From contig JAJDXO010000028.1 in assembly GCA_022823235.1 (NCBI GenBank), forward strand, positions 41,287-105,286: a stretch of DNA of 64,000 bases, read 5' to 3'. The first letter of the stretch is position 1. Each line of letters starts with the position of its first letter. The notes beneath the pieces are model-generated. The model worked only from the letters and a program-made list of their open reading frames with translations, made no database searches and was not told the origin of the DNA. This DNA is from Rhodospirillales bacterium. GTDB taxonomy: Bacteria; Pseudomonadota; Alphaproteobacteria; Rhodospirillales; UBA2165. Shown here piece by piece: positions 7,930-17,139 of the stretch. The translations under genes and the position numbers were made by a program.

Positions 7930-8760
7930 ATGCTGGAGCTCTATTACCTGGAAGAGGCCGACAGCATCTGCTCCAACCGGGTGCTGATGACCCTGGCCGA
8001 GAAGGGCATCGACGATTTCGTCCGCCGCAGGATCGTCCTGATGAACGGCGATCAGTTCAAACCGGAATACCTCAGGCTCAACCCCAAGGCCCAGGTGCCG
8101 ACCCTGGTCCATGACGGGAAGCCGATCCGCGAAAGCTCCATCATCTGCGACTACGTGGACGACCTCGCCGATGCGCCGGCGCTCAAACCCGCCGACCCGG
8201 GGCGCCGCGCCGAAATGCAGGAATGGATCAAGGATTCCGACGAGACCGGCTATCAGGCCACGGCGTCGATCAATTTCGTCACCAAGTTCCGCCTTTCCGT
8301 CCCCATCGAGAAGATGGAGGCGCGCTGGAAGCAGGTCACCGATATCGAGCGGGTGCACCGCCAGCAGTCCTGCGTCCGCGAGGGCTATGACAGCCCCTAT
8401 GTGCTGCGCGCCATCGGCGGCTGGGAGCGCATCTTCGCCAAGATGGAAAAAACCCTCTCGGACGGGCGGCCCTGGGTCATGGGGGACGATATCTCGCTGG
8501 TGGAAACCACCCACGCGCCGTTCATCCGGGTGCTTCACATGCTCCGGCTGCTGCATTTGTGGTTCGAAGGAAGGCCCAACCTCCAGGCCTGGTGGGAGCG
8601 GATCGTCACCCGGCCGAGCTATACCCAACTGGACGAATACGAAGGCCAGATGGAGGACGACGACGCGCCCCACGCGGTCGCCGGCCGCGAGGGCGAAGCG
8701 GACGTCAAACGCATCCTCGGTCAGTACCGGGAAATGATGAAGGGCCGGGGGCTCGGCTAA
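7930..8760 (+). CDS. Glutathione S-transferase family protein
   Basis: Start at the ATG at 7930, preceded by a GGGGGGAG ribosome site; the longer track ORF overlaps the upstream gene. It has 276 residues. The N-terminal thioredoxin-like domain is LYYLEEADSICSNRVLMTLAEKGI with NPKAQVPTLVHDG (cis-Pro loop) and RESSIICDYVDD (glutathione gamma-Glu contact). The rest is a helical domain with a longer middle than classical GSTs. Its place behind a Rieske oxygenase suggests a catabolic role such as ether cleavage, dehalogenation or epoxide conjugation. The 3' end overlaps the convergent dioxygenase beta gene by 4 bases. Confidence 0.85.
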   Translation: MLELYYLEEADSICSNRVLMTLAEKGIDDFVRRRIVLMNGDQFKPEYLRLNPKAQVPTLVHDGKPIRESSIICDYVDDLADAPALKPADPGRRAEMQEWIKDSDETGYQATASINFVTKFRLSVPIEKMEARWKQVTDIERVHRQQSCVREGYDSPYVLRAIGGWERIFAKMEKTLSDGRPWVMGDDISLVETTHAPFIRVLHMLRLLHLWFEGRPNLQAWWERIVTRPSYTQLDEYEGQMEDDDAPHAVAGREGEADVKRILGQYREMMKGRGLG

Positions 8761-9254
8761 AGCAAAAACGTCAGGTTCGGGATCGCCGTGTCGCGGTTGA
8801 GCAGCACGAGCCGCTTCCGGGCGATTTTCCACGCGCCGCCAACCAGCCGCAGCTTGTGCTCCGCATGCGCCGCGAAGGCGCGCTGATCGCCCAAATCCAG
8901 CTGCCGGTCGTCGGCGGCGCCGGCACGGATTTCATGGATGATCTGGGACGACAGGATCGTGGCCTCGGTTTCGGCCGCGTCCTCGACGATCACGTTGGAG
9001 ATCAGGTGGTGGGTGCTGCTCGGCGGGTCCTGGGCCGGAAACGAGGTCCGGGTCAGGCGGTAGACCCGCTCGCGCCGCCTCAAATCGTCGTCGTAGATGA
9101 TGGAGAGGTGGTCCGTCGGCCCCGCGTCCCTGTCGATGGGCAGCCAGTAGATGCCGTCCTCGGTGAACAACTCCAGCCAGTCCTCGAACCTGCCTTCGTC
9201 CAGCAGCCGCGCCTCGGCGTAGAGGAAATCCTCGGCCTCGGTCCTGGTCAGCAT
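8757..9254 (-). CDS. Aromatic-ring-hydroxylating dioxygenase beta subunit
   Basis: A 165-residue NTF2/SnoaL-like protein matching the small subunit of Rieske dioxygenases: AEDFLYAEARLLDEGRFEDWLELF at the N-terminus, then YWLPIDRD, TRTSFPAQDPPSSTHHLISNV and the closing WKIARKRLVLLN. It has no metal site of its own; it packs with alpha subunits. It lies downstream of the alpha gene in the same direction but is separated from it by a G-rich repeat, so cotranscription is likely but not proven. Confidence 0.9.
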   Translation of the reverse strand: MLTRTEAEDFLYAEARLLDEGRFEDWLELFTEDGIYWLPIDRDAGPTDHLSIIYDDDLRRRERVYRLTRTSFPAQDPPSSTHHLISNVIVEDAAETEATILSSQIIHEIRAGAADDRQLDLGDQRAFAAHAEHKLRLVGGAWKIARKRLVLLNRDTAIPNLTFLL

Positions 9255-9279
9255 GCAAATTGCCCGGTGGCCGAAGCAT

Positions 9280-9383
9280 CCACCCCCACCCCAACCCTCC
9301 CCCGTCGAGGGGGAGGGGGAATAGTCGCGGACTTCATCTTCGAGTCCCTCCCCCCTTGACGGGGGGAGGTCAGGAGGGGGGTG
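9280..9383. repeat. G-rich intergenic repeat, copy 3 (partial)
   Basis: CACCCCCACCCCAACCCTCCCCCGTCGAGGG matches the distal part of copies 1 and 2, followed by an inverted CCTCCCCCCTTGACGGGGGGAGG half. It separates the dioxygenase alpha and beta genes. Confidence 0.7.
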
Positions 9384-9405
9384 GCCCCGGCAGGGAAGAG
9401 AGGCT

Positions 9406-10704
9406 TCACGCCGTCGCCATCCATTGCTTCCATGCCCGGTGGAGCGCCCGCTGGGGGGCTTCGTCGGTGCTGTCCGCCGTCCTGACCCCCTTGTTGTCCA
9501 TGGTCTCCCGCGCCATGCCCCGGCTGAGCAGCAGCCAGTCCACCTCCTCGGCCTGCAGGCCGGTCTGGTTGAAGGCGAAGATCTCCACGTCGTCGGGCGA
9601 GCCGAAGCCCGCGGGCCCGAAAAACCGCTGATAGGACTTCAGGCGGAAGTCGTTATAGGCCTCGGACGCGCCTTTCAGCTTGTAGAACGAGATGGAGACC
9701 TCGGTGCGGTCGGGCGCGATGGGCCGCCAGGTGCGGAACTGCCCATGCAGGATGGCGAGCGACGGGAAGATCACCAGGTTCATGGAATTCATCATCTCGT
9801 GCGCCCGGCGAACGCCGTACCTGCCCTCCAGCCAGTCCACGTAGTCGCCGAACCCGCCGTTGCGGAGCCCCGCCAGCCCGTCGGCGGTCATCGGGCTTTC
9901 CCAGATGCCGTGGCCGTTCTCGAAGCCCATGGAGCGCCCGGTCATCCGGTGTTCGAAGATGTCCTCCAGATCGGCCTCCGCGTAGGCGCCGTGCATGCCG
10001 CCCTTGTTGCCGAACTCGGCGATCAGCTTGAAGAAACTCTCATGCACCGTGTCGCCGTGATAGCCGTCGGTGGAATTCTCCGCCTGGAACTTCCAGTTGC
10101 CCCGGTATTCGGTGCGGTGCGCGCCCTGCACCACCTCCACCTCGCCGCCGGGCGCCCGGTCCAGGTGGGTATCGAGGAACGGCTTCGCCTCGCCGAGATA
10201 ATCGAGGAAGCCGGGCGCCGCCGGATCGAGGTTGGCGAAGATCAGCCCGCGGTAGTTTTCCACCCGCGCCACCGGCACCAGGCCGAACCGGGACTTGTCG
10301 AAATCGTCCGGATAGCCGCCCTTGTGCTTGGCGATGCCCTGCAGCGACCCGTCGAGGCCATAGACCCAGCCGTGATAGCGGCACCGGAAGCGGGGCACGT
10401 TGCCCCGTTCTGCCCGGCAGACCACGCTGCCCCGGTGGCGGCAGCGGTTGAGGAAGACGTGCAGCGCGCCGGTCTCGTCCCGGGACAGCACCACGGGCCT
10501 GAGCCCCATATAGGCGGTCTTGAAGTCGCCCGGATTCGCGACCTCGCTCTCGTGGCCGATATAGATCCAGGTCCTGGCGAACAGCTCCTTCATTTCGAGC
10601 GCGAAGATGTCCGGGTCCGTATAGACCCGGCCCGAAACCCGGAAGTCGTCCGGGGTCTCGGCGATCAGACTGTCGAGATCGGCGGCCGGCAAATGGGTAT
10701 CCAC
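9406..10704 (-). CDS. Aromatic-ring-hydroxylating dioxygenase alpha subunit (Rieske)
   Basis: About 432 residues. The track start at 10719 is a TTG inside the ribosome-binding sequence (GAGGGAGGGG); the GTG at 10704 fits better. The Rieske cluster is C88-x-H90 (NRCRHRG) with C108-x-x-H111 (CRYHGW). The mononuclear iron site reads ENSTDGYHGDTVHES. This is the catalytic subunit that adds dioxygen across an aromatic ring, with the beta gene downstream. No ferredoxin or reductase gene is in the window. The substrate class (benzoate/salicylate-like or other) cannot be read from sequence alone. Confidence 0.92.
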   Translation of the reverse strand: MDTHLPAADLDSLIAETPDDFRVSGRVYTDPDIFALEMKELFARTWIYIGHESEVANPGDFKTAYMGLRPVVLSRDETGALHVFLNRCRHRGSVVCRAERGNVPRFRCRYHGWVYGLDGSLQGIAKHKGGYPDDFDKSRFGLVPVARVENYRGLIFANLDPAAPGFLDYLGEAKPFLDTHLDRAPGGEVEVVQGAHRTEYRGNWKFQAENSTDGYHGDTVHESFFKLIAEFGNKGGMHGAYAEADLEDIFEHRMTGRSMGFENGHGIWESPMTADGLAGLRNGGFGDYVDWLEGRYGVRRAHEMMNSMNLVIFPSLAILHGQFRTWRPIAPDRTEVSISFYKLKGASEAYNDFRLKSYQRFFGPAGFGSPDDVEIFAFNQTGLQAEEVDWLLLSRGMARETMDNKGVRTADSTDEAPQRALHRAWKQWMATA

Positions 10705-10780
10705 GATCCCCTCCCTCAAGCCGGAATTGTCGGCAAACCCGCCCGCCGGGTCAATGGGGGGAGACCCCTGTTCCCGGAAT

Positions 10781-11491
10781 TCACCACGGCAATTGTTCGC
10801 CGTCGAAGTTCCAGTAGGTGCCGGTATCGGCGATGGTCAATTTGTCGAGCACCGCGCGCATGCCCTCGCAGGCCTCCTCGACCGTGTTCACGGCGTTGGG
10901 GCCGCCGAGATCGGTCTTGGTCCAGCCGGGCGCGATGGAGACGACGATGACGCCCCGGGGCTCCAGCCACGCGCCGATGCCCCGCATCATCATGTTGAGC
11001 GCCGCCTTCGAGGTGCGGTAGGCGTAGCGGCCCCCCATCCAGGTGTTCCCGATGCTCGACAGCCCGGACGCCATCATGGCGATGATCTTCCTGTCGCTCG
11101 CCGCCACGTTGCCGGCGAAGGCGCCGGTGACCCGGCCCTGTCCCAGCACGTTGACCTTCAGGACCTCGGCCCAGACGTCGTAGTCGTAGTTGGCGGGATC
11201 GGGGTCGTCCTTGCCCTCCAGCACGCCGGTGCCGTAATTGTCGGCGATGCCGGCATTGTTGATCAGCAGGTCGACGGCCTCCCCGCCGATCCGGTCGGAG
11301 ACGGCGTCGATCTCATGCTGCAGGGTTACATCCATCTCGTGGACACTGAGGTCTCCGGACAGATTCTTCAGTTCGCGGGCTTCGTCGGGGTTCCGGCAGG
11401 TGGCATGCACCCGCCAGCCCTCGGCGAGATACTGACGCGCCAGTTCGAGGCCGATGCCCCGGTTGGCGCCGGTGATGAGTGTGGTCGGCAT
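10781..11491 (-). CDS. SDR family oxidoreductase
   Basis: A 236-residue short-chain dehydrogenase. The cofactor motif is TGANRGIG, the structural motif NNAG, and the active site SGLSSIGN..YAYRTSKAA (Tyr-xxx-Lys). The overall pattern resembles the C-factor/sniffer-like SDR group. It is on the same strand just upstream of the dioxygenase alpha gene. It may act on the cis-dihydrodiol or another intermediate, although dihydrodiol dehydrogenases usually belong to a different SDR branch. Confidence 0.85.
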   Translation of the reverse strand: MPTTLITGANRGIGLELARQYLAEGWRVHATCRNPDEARELKNLSGDLSVHEMDVTLQHEIDAVSDRIGGEAVDLLINNAGIADNYGTGVLEGKDDPDPANYDYDVWAEVLKVNVLGQGRVTGAFAGNVAASDRKIIAMMASGLSSIGNTWMGGRYAYRTSKAALNMMMRGIGAWLEPRGVIVVSIAPGWTKTDLGGPNAVNTVEEACEGMRAVLDKLTIADTGTYWNFDGEQLPW

Positions 11492-11528: not shown

Positions 11529-12764
11529 TTATTCGTACCGCAACGCCTCGATGGGATCGAGACGGGACGCCTTCCGGGCCGGATAAAAGCCGAAGAAAAT
11601 GCCGACGATTGCGGCGAAGCCGAAGGCGAGGACGATGCTTTCGGGCCTTATCACCGTCGGCCAGTCGCCGAGGTTCGATATGCCGACGGAACCGGCGAGA
11701 CCGACGGCGATGCCGATGAGGCCGCCGATCAGGCTCAGGGTCACCGCCTCGATGAGGAACTGGTTCTGGATGTCCTTCTTGCGCGCGCCGATGGCCATGC
11801 GGAGGCCGATTTCCCGGGTCCGTTCGGTAACGCTGACCAGCATGATGTTCATGATGCCGATGCCGCCGACGACGAGGGAGATGCTGGCGACCGCCGCCAG
11901 CAGCACGGTCATGACCCGGGATGACGAGGCCCGCGCCTCCAATATGGAGGACAGGTTGCGGACAAAGAAGTCATCGGGTTGACCGGGCCTGATTTTATGG
12001 CGCTGGCGCAGAAGGCTGGTCATTTCCCGTATAGTGTCGTCCACCTCGGCCGCCGAGTGTGATTTGACGAACATGGTGGAAACCAGGCGTCCCTTCAGCC
12101 GGCGCCCGCCGATGAGCCGTTTTTTGGCCGTCGACAGGGGCACGAAAATGGTGTCGTCCATGTCGTTGCCCCGGGGAGTCTCGCCCTTGGGAACCAAGGT
12201 GCCGACGATGGTGAACGGCACGCGCTTCACGCGGATGATCTGGCCGACGGGGTCGTCGCCCGGCTCGAACATGTTCTCGACGATGGTCTCGCCGACCAGT
12301 GCGACCTTGGCCGCGCCCTTGACCTCCTGGTGGGTGAACCAGCGGCCGCCGTCGACGATCCAGTCCCGGGCCTCCTGATACTCCGGCGTCACGCCCATGA
12401 TGGTGGTCGACCAGTTCCTGTTGCCGAAGATCAGCTGGCCGGTGCCGCGAACGGTGGGCGCCGCGATCTTCACGGAATCGATTTCGGTTTGTATGGCGAT
12501 GGCGTCGTCTTCGGTGATGGTCGGCCGGGAGCCCCGGGCGCCGCGGGCGCCGCCGGACGTGGTCCTGCCGGGCAGGACGAGCACCAGGTTCGAGCCGAGA
12601 CTCTGGATCAGATCATCGACCCGTTTCTGGGCGCCCGCGCCGATGGAGATCATGATGATCACCGCGCCGACGCCGATGATGATGCCGAGGGCCGTCAGGA
12701 CGCTCCGCAGGATATTGACCCGGATCGCCCGGAGCGCGGCGGCGATGGAATCCGCGTAGGTCAT
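11529..12764 (-). CDS. MacB-type ABC transporter permease
   Basis: A 411-residue protein with the MacB/FtsX permease layout: an N-terminal helix (LRSVLTALGIIIGVGAVIIMISIGAGAQ), a large periplasmic domain (about residues 45-280) and three C-terminal helices, including ERTREIGLRMAIGARKKDIQNQFLIEA and the end FYPARKASRLDPIEALRYE. A short Gly/Arg/Ser stretch (TTSGGARGARGSRP) lies at the start of the periplasmic domain. It overlaps the ATPase gene by 4 bases. Classical MacB fuses ATPase and permease; here they are split, as in many Mac-like systems. It is the last gene of the ECF-headed operon. Confidence 0.92.
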   Translation of the reverse strand: MTYADSIAAALRAIRVNILRSVLTALGIIIGVGAVIIMISIGAGAQKRVDDLIQSLGSNLVLVLPGRTTSGGARGARGSRPTITEDDAIAIQTEIDSVKIAAPTVRGTGQLIFGNRNWSTTIMGVTPEYQEARDWIVDGGRWFTHQEVKGAAKVALVGETIVENMFEPGDDPVGQIIRVKRVPFTIVGTLVPKGETPRGNDMDDTIFVPLSTAKKRLIGGRRLKGRLVSTMFVKSHSAAEVDDTIREMTSLLRQRHKIRPGQPDDFFVRNLSSILEARASSSRVMTVLLAAVASISLVVGGIGIMNIMLVSVTERTREIGLRMAIGARKKDIQNQFLIEAVTLSLIGGLIGIAVGLAGSVGISNLGDWPTVIRPESIVLAFGFAAIVGIFFGFYPARKASRLDPIEALRYE

Positions 12765-13510
12765 TCCGCCGCCTCCGGCACATCCATGCTTTTCAGAAGC
12801 GCGTCCGCATCCTCGCGGGTTTCGGTTCGGGTGTCGGAAATCACCACGCCGTCCCGGAACCGCACCACCCGGTCGGCAAAACGGGCTACGCCCGCTTCGT
12901 GGGTGACCAGCACCACGGTCATGCCGGCTTCCCGATTGAGCCGCTGGAAGATCGCCATGATCTCGATCCCCGTCCGGGTGTCGAGCGCGCCCGTCGGCTC
13001 GTCGGCGAAGATAAGCTGCGGATCGTTGACCAGCGCCCGGGCGATGGCGACCCGTTGCTGCTGACCGCCGGAGAGCTGGGAAGGCTGATGATCCATGCGG
13101 TCGCCAAGCCCGACATCGTTGAGCACCCGCTCCGCCGCTTCACGGCGTTGCGCCTTCTTCAGACGGGCATACATCAAGGGAAGCTGGACGTTGTCGGCGG
13201 CCGAGGTGCGGGCCAGAAGATTGAAGCTTTGGAAGACGAACCCGATCCTGGCGTTTCGCGTCTCGGCCAGTTCGTCGGGTTGAAGCTCGGACATATCGAC
13301 GCCATTGAGGAGGTATGTGCCGCGGGTCGGCGTATCGAGACAGCCCAGCAGGTTCATCATGGTCGTCTTGCCTGATCCGGACGGTCCCATGATGGCGACG
13401 AACTCGCCGGCGGCGATGGTCAGATCCACATCGCGGAGAGCGCGGACCACGTTGTCGCCGAGGATGTAGTCCTTGGAGAGACCCGTCACCTGGATGAGCG
13501 CGCCGGTCAT
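12761..13510 (-). CDS. MacB-type ABC transporter ATP-binding protein
   Basis: A 249-residue LolD/MacB-class ATPase. Walker A is GPSGSGKTT, the signature LSGGQQQR, Walker B LIFADEPTGALD, and the H-loop VLVTHE. All catalytic residues are intact. It powers the permease encoded next (4-base overlap) together with the adaptor encoded 5 bases upstream, forming a tripartite export pump that would need a TolC-like outer-membrane protein from elsewhere. Confidence 0.94.
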   Translation of the reverse strand: MTGALIQVTGLSKDYILGDNVVRALRDVDLTIAAGEFVAIMGPSGSGKTTMMNLLGCLDTPTRGTYLLNGVDMSELQPDELAETRNARIGFVFQSFNLLARTSAADNVQLPLMYARLKKAQRREAAERVLNDVGLGDRMDHQPSQLSGGQQQRVAIARALVNDPQLIFADEPTGALDTRTGIEIMAIFQRLNREAGMTVVLVTHEAGVARFADRVVRFRDGVVISDTRTETREDADALLKSMDVPEAAE

Positions 13511-13515
13511 GGCGA

Positions 13516-15207
13516 TTAGAGCCCGAAGCGGAAGAAACGGTTGGAGCTCTCCTCGGCCGACCGGTTGATGCCGGTCAGGACCACATCGCCCTCCTGGAGC
13601 GGCCCCCGGACCATCTCGGTGGACTTGCCGTCGCCGACGCCGATGAAGACCCGGATCCGCTTCGGTTCGCCATCCTCCAGAATCCAGACATGGGCCGGCG
13701 TGGCCGGGTTGGCCCGGCGTTCGGCGATGCGGGCGCGGAACTTCCGCTGCTGCGCCGGGTTCAGAAGGGCGAGGATTTTTTGGCTGTTGTCCCGGCGCAT
13801 CTTGCGGAGCGTTTCGCGGAGTTCCGGACCGCCGCCGGCCTGGCGCATCGCCCGCATGCGCTGGAACATCTGCCGGTTGAGGCTGCGCACCTGCGATTTT
13901 TGCTCTTCCGACAGACCGAGAAATTCGGCCAGCTCGTTCATGCGCTTCTGCGCCGCCGCCCGCCGGGCCTGGGGATCGCCGCGGGGACCTCCGCCGCGGG
14001 GACCTCGGGCGCCGGGACCTCCGGCGCCGGGGCCGCGCGGACCGCCGGACGCGGCGCCGGGTGCCGCAATCCGTTCCTCGCCGGGCGGGGTGAATCGCAG
14101 CGCGGTGTTGGGGATGCGCAGTACGTTCTTGCGATCGGAGACCTTGACCTCGACCGTCGCCGTCATGCCCGGCAGCAACCGGAGATCGGCGTTGTCCACA
14201 TTGATGACCACCGTATAGGTGACGACGTTCTGGACCGACCGGGGCTGCTTGCGGACCTGGGTCACGGTGCCGCGGAAGTTCCGGCCGGCAAATGAATCGA
14301 CGGTGAAGGTCGCGACCTGACCCGAGGCAATCTGGCCGATATCGGCCTCGTCGATATTAGTCTCGACCTGCATGTCGCGCAGGTCCCGGGCGATGGTGAA
14401 CAGGGTCGGCGCCTGCAGACTGGCCGCCACCGTTTGTCCGATATCCACATTACGGCCGATGACCACGCCGTCCACCGGCGAGCGGATGAACGTGTTGTCC
14501 AAGTTGACCTTGGCAATATTCAGCACCGCACGTTTCTGTTGCACCTGGGCGCCGGCATGGACGATCTCGGCCTCGGCCACCGAGACGCTTGCGTTGCGGG
14601 CCGCGACCGTCGAGCGGTGCGCCGCCAGCCGCGCTTTGGCCGAGCGAATTTGGGCGACCGAGGAATCATAGGCGGCTTTCGCGGAATCGACGACGGAAAC
14701 CGAAACCACCCCGCGCTCCCGGAGGCGCGCCTTGCGGCCGTATTCCCGTTCCAGGTCGGTGGCATTGACCGTCGCCCGCTCGACGTCGGCCTGATAAGCG
14801 GCAAGGGTGGCGCGCGCGTTGTCCCGGTTGGCCCGCGCCTGAAATAGCGCGGCTTTCTTGGTGGCGACGGTGGCTTCGGCTACCGCGAGTTCCGCCGCCG
14901 CCTGCTCTACCCTGGCTTCAAGGCTCTCGGGATCGATGCGGGCAATCACCTGGCCGGCCCGAACGGCCGAATTGAAATCAGCCTTCAACTCGGAGATCTG
15001 GCCGGAGATCTCGGAGCCCACCTCGACCGTTACCACGGCGTTGAGTTGACCCGAGGCCGAGACGGATTTGAGAACATCGCCGCGGTCAATCGTTGCGGTC
15101 CGGAACTTGGTCCCGCCGTCGCCGGCTTCGCCGCTGATCAGTCCGAATCCGGCGGCGCCGACGGCCAAAACGGCGATGAATGCGATGATGAGTTTGCCTG
15201 AGGTCAT
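13516..15207 (-). CDS. MacA-type periplasmic adaptor with inserted Spy/CpxP-like segment
   Basis: 563 residues, clearly longer than typical MacA (about 370-400). Order: N-terminal membrane anchor (residues 5-26), lipoyl half (about 45-95), long alpha-helical hairpin (about 95-225), second lipoyl half with RSPVDGVV (about 242-249), beta-barrel (about 270-375), then an insertion at about 378-503, then the membrane-proximal domain (AHVWILEDGEPKRIRVFIG...EGDVVLTG). The insertion begins with a Gly/Pro/Arg-rich linker and continues with a charged helical part holding LSEEQ and LNPAQ, which resemble the LTxxQ motifs of Spy/CpxP proteins. It probably links the pump to the outer membrane; the insertion may sense metals or misfolded protein. 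The adaptor call is firm, the insert identity less so. Confidence 0.88.
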   Translation of the reverse strand: MTSGKLIIAFIAVLAVGAAGFGLISGEAGDGGTKFRTATIDRGDVLKSVSASGQLNAVVTVEVGSEISGQISELKADFNSAVRAGQVIARIDPESLEARVEQAAAELAVAEATVATKKAALFQARANRDNARATLAAYQADVERATVNATDLEREYGRKARLRERGVVSVSVVDSAKAAYDSSVAQIRSAKARLAAHRSTVAARNASVSVAEAEIVHAGAQVQQKRAVLNIAKVNLDNTFIRSPVDGVVIGRNVDIGQTVAASLQAPTLFTIARDLRDMQVETNIDEADIGQIASGQVATFTVDSFAGRNFRGTVTQVRKQPRSVQNVVTYTVVINVDNADLRLLPGMTATVEVKVSDRKNVLRIPNTALRFTPPGEERIAAPGAASGGPRGPGAGGPGARGPRGGGPRGDPQARRAAAQKRMNELAEFLGLSEEQKSQVRSLNRQMFQRMRAMRQAGGGPELRETLRKMRRDNSQKILALLNPAQQRKFRARIAERRANPATPAHVWILEDGEPKRIRVFIGVGDGKSTEMVRGPLQEGDVVLTGINRSAEESSNRFFRFGL

Positions 15208-16228: not shown

Positions 16229-16795
16229 CTAAATATCTCCTTTGAGTTCCGGCCGCAGCCCGGCCAGTGATTTTTTCAGACCCCGGCGCCCGCGCGCCAG
16301 TAACGATTCGACAGCCTCGACACTGATTTCCATGATCTCCGCCGTCTCGATATTGCTCAATCCCTCCTGGTGCACCATCACGATCGCCGCCCTTTGACGC
16401 TCGGGGAGCTTCTGGATGGCACTGTTGATCGCGTTTGCCAACTCCCGCTGATGGACCTCGGCGGCCGCACTTTTGGCCGGATCGGGCGGCTCGGGCACGG
16501 CGTCGATGGAAACCGGCCTGGCCTTTCGGAGCCGGTCGATACACAGGTTATACGTGACCTTGTGCAGCCAGTGAACCACGGGCGCCTCGGCCCGCCACTT
16601 GGGCGCCTGCCGCCAAAGCCTGAGGAAGGCTTCCTGAGCCACGTCCTCGGCCTCGACCGGGTCACCGAGCATCCTGTATCCATAGCCGACAATCCGATCC
16701 AAATATAAATCCACGATGATACGGCAGGCCTCGGACTCCCCCTCGCCGATCCGGCGGACCAGCGCGGCGTCGCTTTCGGGCGTGGGGTCGTTCAT
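16229..16795 (-). CDS. ECF-type RNA polymerase sigma factor
   Basis: 188 residues. Region 2: DRIVGYGYRMLGDPVEAEDVAQEAFLRLW, then HWLHKVTYNLCIDRLRK. Region 4: LPERQRAAIVMVHQEGLSNIETAEIMEISVEAVESLLARGR with a helix-turn-helix. There is no region 3, as expected for group 4 sigma factors. It heads the six-gene operon that continues with the anti-sigma-like protein, the Spy-like sensor and the Mac pump, and probably activates that operon. A weak promoter-like pair (TCGACT, 17 bases, TAGATA on the minus strand near 16850-16880) precedes it, but no clear ECF-type -35 is visible. Confidence 0.93.
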   Translation of the reverse strand: MNDPTPESDAALVRRIGEGESEACRIIVDLYLDRIVGYGYRMLGDPVEAEDVAQEAFLRLWRQAPKWRAEAPVVHWLHKVTYNLCIDRLRKARPVSIDAVPEPPDPAKSAAAEVHQRELANAINSAIQKLPERQRAAIVMVHQEGLSNIETAEIMEISVEAVESLLARGRRGLKKSLAGLRPELKGDI

Positions 16796-17139
16796 CGGTT
16801 TGCTCAGGGGCTCGCTTGGTATGGAGATCGTGGCGTCGCGGCAAGTCGTACTATCTACTTAAGGCTTACCCCGAAGTCGATCCCGGAAAGCGGTCCCGTC
16901 GGTGCGCCGAACCGGCGGCATCTGAGCCTTGTCCCGCCGAACGGCCCCTTGAACTCCCCAAACCATTCGAAACCGAAGCGTGTTCGTATCGTACCTGTCT
17001 AACGCCGGGCGGGTCCAAATCCGTCGCACCCCCCACGAAAAGCCGCTTTAATCACACAAAAATAATGTTATTAGGTAGGTATTTACACATCAGACTGTGC
17101 AAACTATAGTGCCGCTCCACTTTTGACGGATTTCCGCCC
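16796..17139. other. Divergent promoter region, no gene
   Basis: A 344-base gap between the divergently transcribed sigma factor and DUF2849 genes. The right part is A+T-rich and holds a near-consensus promoter at 17082-17110. No ORF here has convincing coding character. Confidence 0.7.
17082..17110 (+). promoter_or_regulatory. Near-consensus sigma-70 promoter of the sulfite-reduction genes
   Basis: TTTACA, a 17-base spacer and TATAGT, 30 bases before the DUF2849 start codon. The stretch just upstream (TTATTAGGTAGGTATTTA) has a short GGTA direct repeat that could be an operator, but no known binding site was recognised. Confidence 0.75.

Follow-up and report, generated by a model that had tools for sequence, protein, structure and literature searches.

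The window, by which we mean the whole 64,000-nucleotide stretch of Rhodospirillales DNA analysed here, encodes on its minus strand an ECF sigma factor, an anti-sigma-like protein, a putative sensor, a periplasmic adaptor, an ATPase and a permease, which in this order apparently constitute one operon (Table 1). The anti-sigma-like protein was assigned mainly from its position and hydropathy, and the same place is kept in 11 loci. No TolC gene was found in the operon of the adaptor. Downstream of the pump genes, genes for ring-hydroxylating dioxygenase-like small and large subunits (8757-10719, minus strand) and, after these, for a separate SDR (10781-11491) were recognized from their translations.

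Table 1. Genes of the pump operon and segments of the adaptor, in window coordinates.
Feature	Position	Strand	Evidence or remarks
MacB-type permease (MacB_PCD + FtsX)	11529..12764	-	PF12704 1.6e-47, PF02687 3.4e-22
MacB-type ABC ATPase, split from permease	12761..13510	-	PF00005 1e-34; MacB PRK10535 N-terminal part 1.2e-80
MacA-type periplasmic adaptor, insert-bearing, N-terminal TM anchor	13516..15207	-	563 aa; TIGR01730, PDB, Foldseek
Spy/CpxP-like (LTXXQ) four-helix domain, predicted, residues 412-499	13711..13974	-	Model helices, profile matches
Second LTxxQ-type motif, LNPAQ, residues 482-486	13750..13764	-	Leu482 and Gln486 invariant
First LTxxQ-type motif, LSEEQ, residues 432-436	13900..13914	-	Gln436 invariant
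Gly/Pro/Arg-rich flexible linker, residues 373-411	13975..14091	-	pLDDT < 50 for 381-409; length variable in relatives
Metal_resist (CnrX-type) putative sensor, membrane-anchored, 169 aa	15265..15774	-	PF13801 8.5e-19; N-terminal TM
Anti-sigma-like protein, one hydrophobic segment	15749..16228	-	Position, hydropathy, weak NCBIfam antisigma match (0.0056)
ECF sigma factor	16229..16795	-	NCBIfam PRK05602 1.8e-66, above cut-off; PF04542, PF08281

Both the sequence and the fold of the adaptor are of the MacA type: it scored above the cut-off of NCBIfam TIGR01730, MacA was found in a search of the PDB (E = 2e-30), and the best Foldseek matches to its model were the MacA structures 9qgy and 5nik. 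Its match to the NCBIfam model for MacA, PRK11578 (8e-46), reached 156.8 bits and thus fell below the equivalog cut-off of 342 bits, and by its sequence the protein is a MacA-type adaptor, not MacA sensu stricto. It has the transmembrane anchor, barrel-sandwich, beta-barrel and membrane-proximal domains in common with MacA of the E. coli MacAB-TolC pump (PDB 3fpp, 5nik), and like that protein it is partnered with a MacB-type ABC pump, the genes for which are located in its own operon, but in the window the ATPase and permease reside on separate chains. The adaptor also differs from E. coli MacA by a Spy-like insert of about 125 residues in the membrane-proximal domain and by a longer hairpin. 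With 563 residues as compared to 371, it is about 190 residues longer, the sources being the insert and a hairpin extension of about 50 residues; an earlier note on this DNA was right that the adaptor is longer than MacA, but its figure of about 160 is lower than that obtained against the E. coli protein, in which residues 153-203 of the query are unmatched. These residues (window 14600-14750) correspond to the lengthened part of the coiled-coil hairpin, which would alter the reach of the adaptor to the outer-membrane channel.

The segment to which the earlier note had drawn attention, 13699-14076, corresponds to residues 378-503 of the adaptor. In the alignment to E. coli MacA, the insert covers residues 373-505, approximately, and stands in the place of a loop of about 8 residues (ALG-DPVGDNRYK), with both flanks aligning separately. 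It had been placed between the beta-barrel and the membrane-proximal domain, whereas by the order of strands in the model it lies within the latter domain, flanked by two of its strands. The layout within the insert is as first described, with the Gly/Pro/Arg-rich linker followed by a helical stretch that contains both LSEEQ and LNPAQ.

We predicted the structure of the full-length adaptor with AlphaFold2 from an alignment with 16 relatives and obtained a disordered linker at residues 381-409, followed by helices at residues 412-430, 434-456, 462-481 and 484-499 with pLDDT values of about 72-86. The pTM of this model is low, 0.38, and the placement of the insert domain relative to the rest of the protein is not predicted by it. 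When the insert was modelled alone with 67 diverse relatives, identical helices were predicted at pLDDT values of 85-93, so that the earlier question of whether this segment is helical or disordered is answered in favour of helices. The helices are located where a four-helix hooked-hairpin fold has them, and the two motifs fall at the turns between helices 1 and 2 and between helices 3 and 4. In Foldseek searches with the insert model, the top named families were STV (VirG-like), Spy, CnrX and CpxP, which ranked above unrelated helical proteins or were mixed with them; the TM scores were modest, 0.41-0.57, the probabilities reached 1.0 and the E-values, above 0.07, were weak. Weak E-values of this kind are usual for small helical domains.

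The window insert on its own matched the Pfam LTXXQ family with E-values of 0.002-0.004 (18-19 bits, below the cut-off of 24.3 bits) and the NCBIfam Spy family with an E-value of 0.02. Profiles of the insert gave significant similarity to Spy. In a search of all PDB chains with a profile of 16 inserts from the family, the only matches with E-values below 0.1 were four Spy sequences (1.7e-7 to 3e-6), and with a profile of 67 diverse inserts Spy again ranked first (2.3e-8), followed by a VirG-like protein from Salmonella at 0.0018. A profile of the reversed insert sequences retrieved no Spy match from the PDB (best E-value 0.038), and composition therefore does not explain the match. NCBIfam Spy was matched by 15 of the 16 family inserts (best 1.2e-6) and LTXXQ by 64 of the 67 diverse inserts (best 4.4e-8), while Metal_resist was weakly matched by 20 of the 67. 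Comparison by hhalign of the insert profile with 18 free-standing Spy-type proteins of the same phylum gave a probability of 98.7% over 81 columns, as compared to less than 0.2% for its reversed controls; over all reversed hhalign controls the values were 0.07-0.7%. These 18 proteins had been collected with the 67-sequence profile, which makes this comparison not fully independent, unlike the PDB search. The same comparison with the neighbouring sensor gave only 19% over 23 columns, the insert profile being far closer to Spy, and a copy of the adjoining sensor gene was rejected as the simplest reading of the insert.

Taken on profile similarity and on its predicted structure, the insert is a real, folded and divergent member of the Spy/CpxP (LTXXQ) superfamily with a four-helix domain, and the resemblance of LSEEQ and LNPAQ to the LTxxQ motifs of Spy and CpxP, as proposed earlier, is borne out. 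Spy and CpxP (PF07813; PDB 3o39, 3oeo, 3itf, 3qzc) likewise have four helices with the motifs at equivalent turns, are basic and carry a disordered segment in front. They are, however, free secreted dimers, whereas the insert is a domain within a pump adaptor for which a chaperone activity is putative only; moreover, the two LTxxQ motifs are separated by 50 residues in the insert but by 73 in Spy, and the Met/His-rich N-terminal tail of Spy is absent from the insert.

Among the 16 family members, the variable Gly/Pro/Arg linker is followed by the pattern ARMxxLxxxLxLtxeQxxxVR ... R ... IxxxLtPeQxxkyxxxxAxRxxNP. This pattern is kept in members with as little as 24% identity, and since only the motif columns are invariant, it represents more than chance. 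Three columns alone do not vary across the 67 diverse inserts, Gln436, Leu482 and Gln486, the glutamines of both motifs thus being present in 67 of 67, and Leu426, Leu430, Leu432 and Arg471 are nearly invariant. The dN/dS ratio of the helical part was 0.05-0.19 in seven pairs, for most of them similar to or below that of the adaptor core in the same pair, while the linker diverges faster. These sequence comparisons show that the helical part is under purifying selection. A divergent adaptor of 491 residues from the same family (L017, G012) has a degenerate insert, MTTEQ ... LEPAQ, with both glutamines kept.

To survey the distribution, one genome per species was scanned with patterns from the adaptor, and the 80 best matches to this protein were collected as loci. 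An insert of at least 80 residues was present in 72 of the 80, a fraction that is not a frequency, as a best-match sample is biased to close relatives. The insert-bearing loci belong to Rhodospirillales and other Alphaproteobacteria, Betaproteobacteria, Gammaproteobacteria, Desulfobacterales and relatives, SAR324 and Rokubacteria/Methylomirabilota. Among 289 genomes drawn evenly from the class, 25 had a match to the insert profile, mostly within frames of 500-670 residues, and of 399 genomes of the phylum 88 had one, in adaptors as well as in free Spy-sized proteins. One hit of 188 residues (G680, L140) was rejected as a free-standing protein, being an adaptor cut by the end of its contig. In two small genomes of the class (L122, L130), free-standing Spy-like proteins adjoin an ECF sigma gene, with the sigma match only 16-24 bases away, which is a further pairing of a sigma factor with an LTXXQ protein. 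Relatives in the plasmid collection match only outside the insert, one example being an insert-free adaptor of 480 residues in Azospirillum.

In a tree of 110 adaptors that was inferred with the insert columns left out, and in which the root and the deep order are not certain, presence and absence of the insert requires 8 changes. Because several insert-free adaptors, including members of close pairs in Rokubacteria, are nested among the insert-bearing ones, the tree suggests one old gain of the insert followed by repeated losses. The rokubacterial adaptor L097 has a truncated remnant of the insert, ...KLSEDHAKKL, and in a few adaptors the site holds no more than a short Gly-rich loop. Since several lineages lost the domain and kept the pump, the insert is not essential to export as such. 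The insert-free close relatives L097, L016, L078, L091, L106 and L113 represent natural deletion variants for comparison.

We also examined the neighbouring genes of the adaptors with family-based searches, as greedy gene calling is confounded by shadow ORFs in GC-rich DNA. Downstream sequence of at least 2 kb was available for 62 insert-bearing loci, and in 61 of these the adaptor has both an ATPase and a permease of the MacB type as neighbours. The Spy/metal-sensor-like gene that the earlier note had recognized two genes upstream of the ATPase is the Metal_resist sensor of Table 1, which adjoins the adaptor. An upstream triple of ECF sigma factor, anti-sigma and sensor was identified in 11 of 61 insert-bearing loci, always complete and never partial, and all 11 belong to Alphaproteobacteria or unclassified Proteobacteria; these genes are a conserved alphaproteobacterial add-on. 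The layout, with an ECF sigma factor, a transmembrane anti-sigma-like protein (called mainly by position) and a transmembrane Metal_resist sensor in one operon, follows the three-gene logic of CnrYXH in C. metallidurans (ECF sigma CnrH, anti-sigma CnrY, sensor CnrX). CnrYXH controls a cation RND pump, whereas the triple in the window precedes a MacB-type ABC pump. All 14 homologues of the sensor belong to Metal_resist, but, unlike in CnrX, the metal-ligand region is not conserved among them: the histidines are not invariant, and the MH site is replaced by Asn in three relatives. A search upstream of the sigma gene for a shared ECF -35/-10 pair found none and revealed only an AT-rich block. This conserved block, TGTAAATA...ATAACA...TTGTGTGATTA (window 17043-17087, minus strand), precedes the ECF sigma gene at a distance of about 250-370 bp and is also seen upstream of sigma in L034-L037, L039, L041 and L045-L047. 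It lies between the sigma gene and divergent sulfite-reductase genes and may belong to either operon.

In E. coli, the complete MacAB pump combines hexameric MacA with one dimer of MacB and a trimer of TolC; its periplasmic substrates, including a small periplasmic protein, enter the cavity between MacB and MacA and are expelled by a bellows-like movement, but little is known about substrate recognition by MacB (PMC5985334). Spy is a basic, cradle-shaped dimeric holdase with four helices and a disordered segment at the N-terminus, which is in competition with clients and assists their release (PMC9122904, PMC8144458). A review of adaptors from 2026 regards MacA chiefly as a passive scaffold and makes no mention of an inserted, chaperone or Spy-like domain (PMC13328181), and no description of an LTXXQ/Spy-like insert in a pump adaptor was found in the open-access papers searched. 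The closest known parallel in principle is SilB of Cupriavidus metallidurans, an RND heavy-metal adaptor with a fused CusF-like domain (PMC4446572). Each of the two adaptors carries a homologue of a free periplasmic chaperone as an extra domain, but in SilB this is a C-terminal metallochaperone beta-barrel in an RND pump, whereas the window adaptor has an internal helical domain of the Spy family, serves an ABC (MacB) pump and lacks metal ligands.

By analogy with Spy, the insert may be a built-in holdase that catches polypeptide-like or amphipathic cargo at the mouth of the pump for export, a reading to which we assign a probability of about 0.45. It is proposed because the insert belongs to the Spy fold family, has a disordered stretch at the same end, is basic in its helical part and has an Arg at the column of His96 in Spy. 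The helical part is strongly basic in the window (net charge +14) and in this resembles the cradle in which Spy binds its clients (PMC9122904, PMC8144458), but the median over the 67 inserts is +4 and other inserts often have little net charge, which speaks against a holdase. Column 471, with Arg in 64 of the 67 inserts, aligns with His96 of Spy, and column 448, with Arg in 52 of 67 and Phe here, aligns with Arg50, both of which are client-surface residues (PMC9122904), a coincidence that is not significant alone, as about 15 of the 88 positions are mostly basic. The oligomeric state also counts against a holdase. Spy acts as a dimer, and neighbouring inserts in a hexamer would need to pair.

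Starting from the computed homology, fold, position, conservation, partners and distribution of the insert, we infer the hexamer, the location at the mouth, client binding and hand-over as follows. The insert, a complete domain of the Spy/CpxP family, is tethered by its flexible linker within the membrane-proximal domain of the adaptor, which is of the MacA type and has as partners an ATPase and a permease split from MacB. If the adaptor is a hexamer, as expected of MacA, six Spy-like domains would encircle the pump mouth at the junction between MacA and the periplasmic part of MacB, the presumed point of substrate entry. Their basic face may catch unfolded, amphipathic or acidic periplasmic peptides or proteins, or similar cargo, and the domains would raise its local concentration for hand-over to the MacA/MacB cavity and bellows-like export. 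In Alphaproteobacteria like the source of the window, a presumed inducing signal would cause the pump to be made on demand through the ECF sigma factor, otherwise held by the anti-sigma factor and the CnrX-type periplasmic sensor.

It is unlikely, albeit a serious contender, that the domain is purely structural and stabilises the assembly by pairing neighbouring MacA protomers or by propping the adaptor against MacB, with no client binding. The most conserved residues are those of the fold and motifs (Leu426, Leu430, Leu432, Gln436, Ile478, Leu482, Gln486 and Tyr/Phe490) and form no obvious ligand site, and the dimers of Spy and CpxP (PMC8144458 for Spy) and the hexamer of MacA (PMC5985334) would suit such a role. 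The long, variable Gly/Pro-rich linker, however, argues for a mobile, tethered domain, and the pumps of E. coli MacA and of 14 adaptors in the tree lack it. A regulatory domain, which would sense misfolded cargo or stress as CpxP does on CpxA and gate the MacB ATPase or feed back on the CnrX-type sensor and anti-sigma factor, is improbable: CpxP and CnrX folds are regulatory in known systems, both are listed by Foldseek, and a sensor of the same superfamily is encoded in the operon as part of the triple, but the triple is missing upstream of the adaptor in 50 of the 61 loci that carry the insert, and the insert is no copy of the sensor. For the same reasons, the earlier suggestion that the insert couples sensing to export is not supported as a rule.

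That the domain binds metal ions as in ZraP or CnrX and couples metal sensing to export is very improbable. The membership of the adjoining sensor in Metal_resist and the weak matches of some inserts to this family could be taken to favour metal binding, but Cys is found in 0 of 92 inserts, His accounts for 0.19% of their residues and is absent from 73 of the 92, and no conserved cluster of Met, His, Asp or Glu, nor the conserved ligands of a CnrX/ZraP-type domain, was seen in the inserts; in the sensor, too, three relatives have Asn in place of the MH site. The data thus do not support the metal-sensing module of the earlier note. There is next to no chance that the insert is a low-complexity or neutral expansion without a fold. 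The composition and variable length of the linker, and the short Gly-rich loops of a few adaptors, would fit such an expansion, but the helices are predicted with high pLDDT, the invariant motif residues extend over several phyla rather than close relatives only, and the helical part is not of low complexity because the motif glutamines are invariant and it is under purifying selection. This reading is refuted for residues 412-499 and is still a fair one for the linker, 373-411.

The presence of a covalent, conserved Spy-type domain in a MacA subfamily provides a deletable, assayable module near the presumed entrance of the pump, and substrate capture thereby becomes directly testable. We suggest, tentatively and with rather more doubt than confidence, that a widespread subfamily of MacB-type tripartite pumps carries on its adaptor a covalent Spy-like chaperone that captures proteinaceous cargo or misfolded periplasmic protein and delivers it to the pump, which would constitute an ATP-driven route of export or clearance for periplasmic polypeptides. 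The insert-bearing arrangement points to a way in which these pumps may capture cargo, and it would join the field of periplasmic chaperones to that of tripartite efflux, much as SilB has done in the case of metal chaperones.
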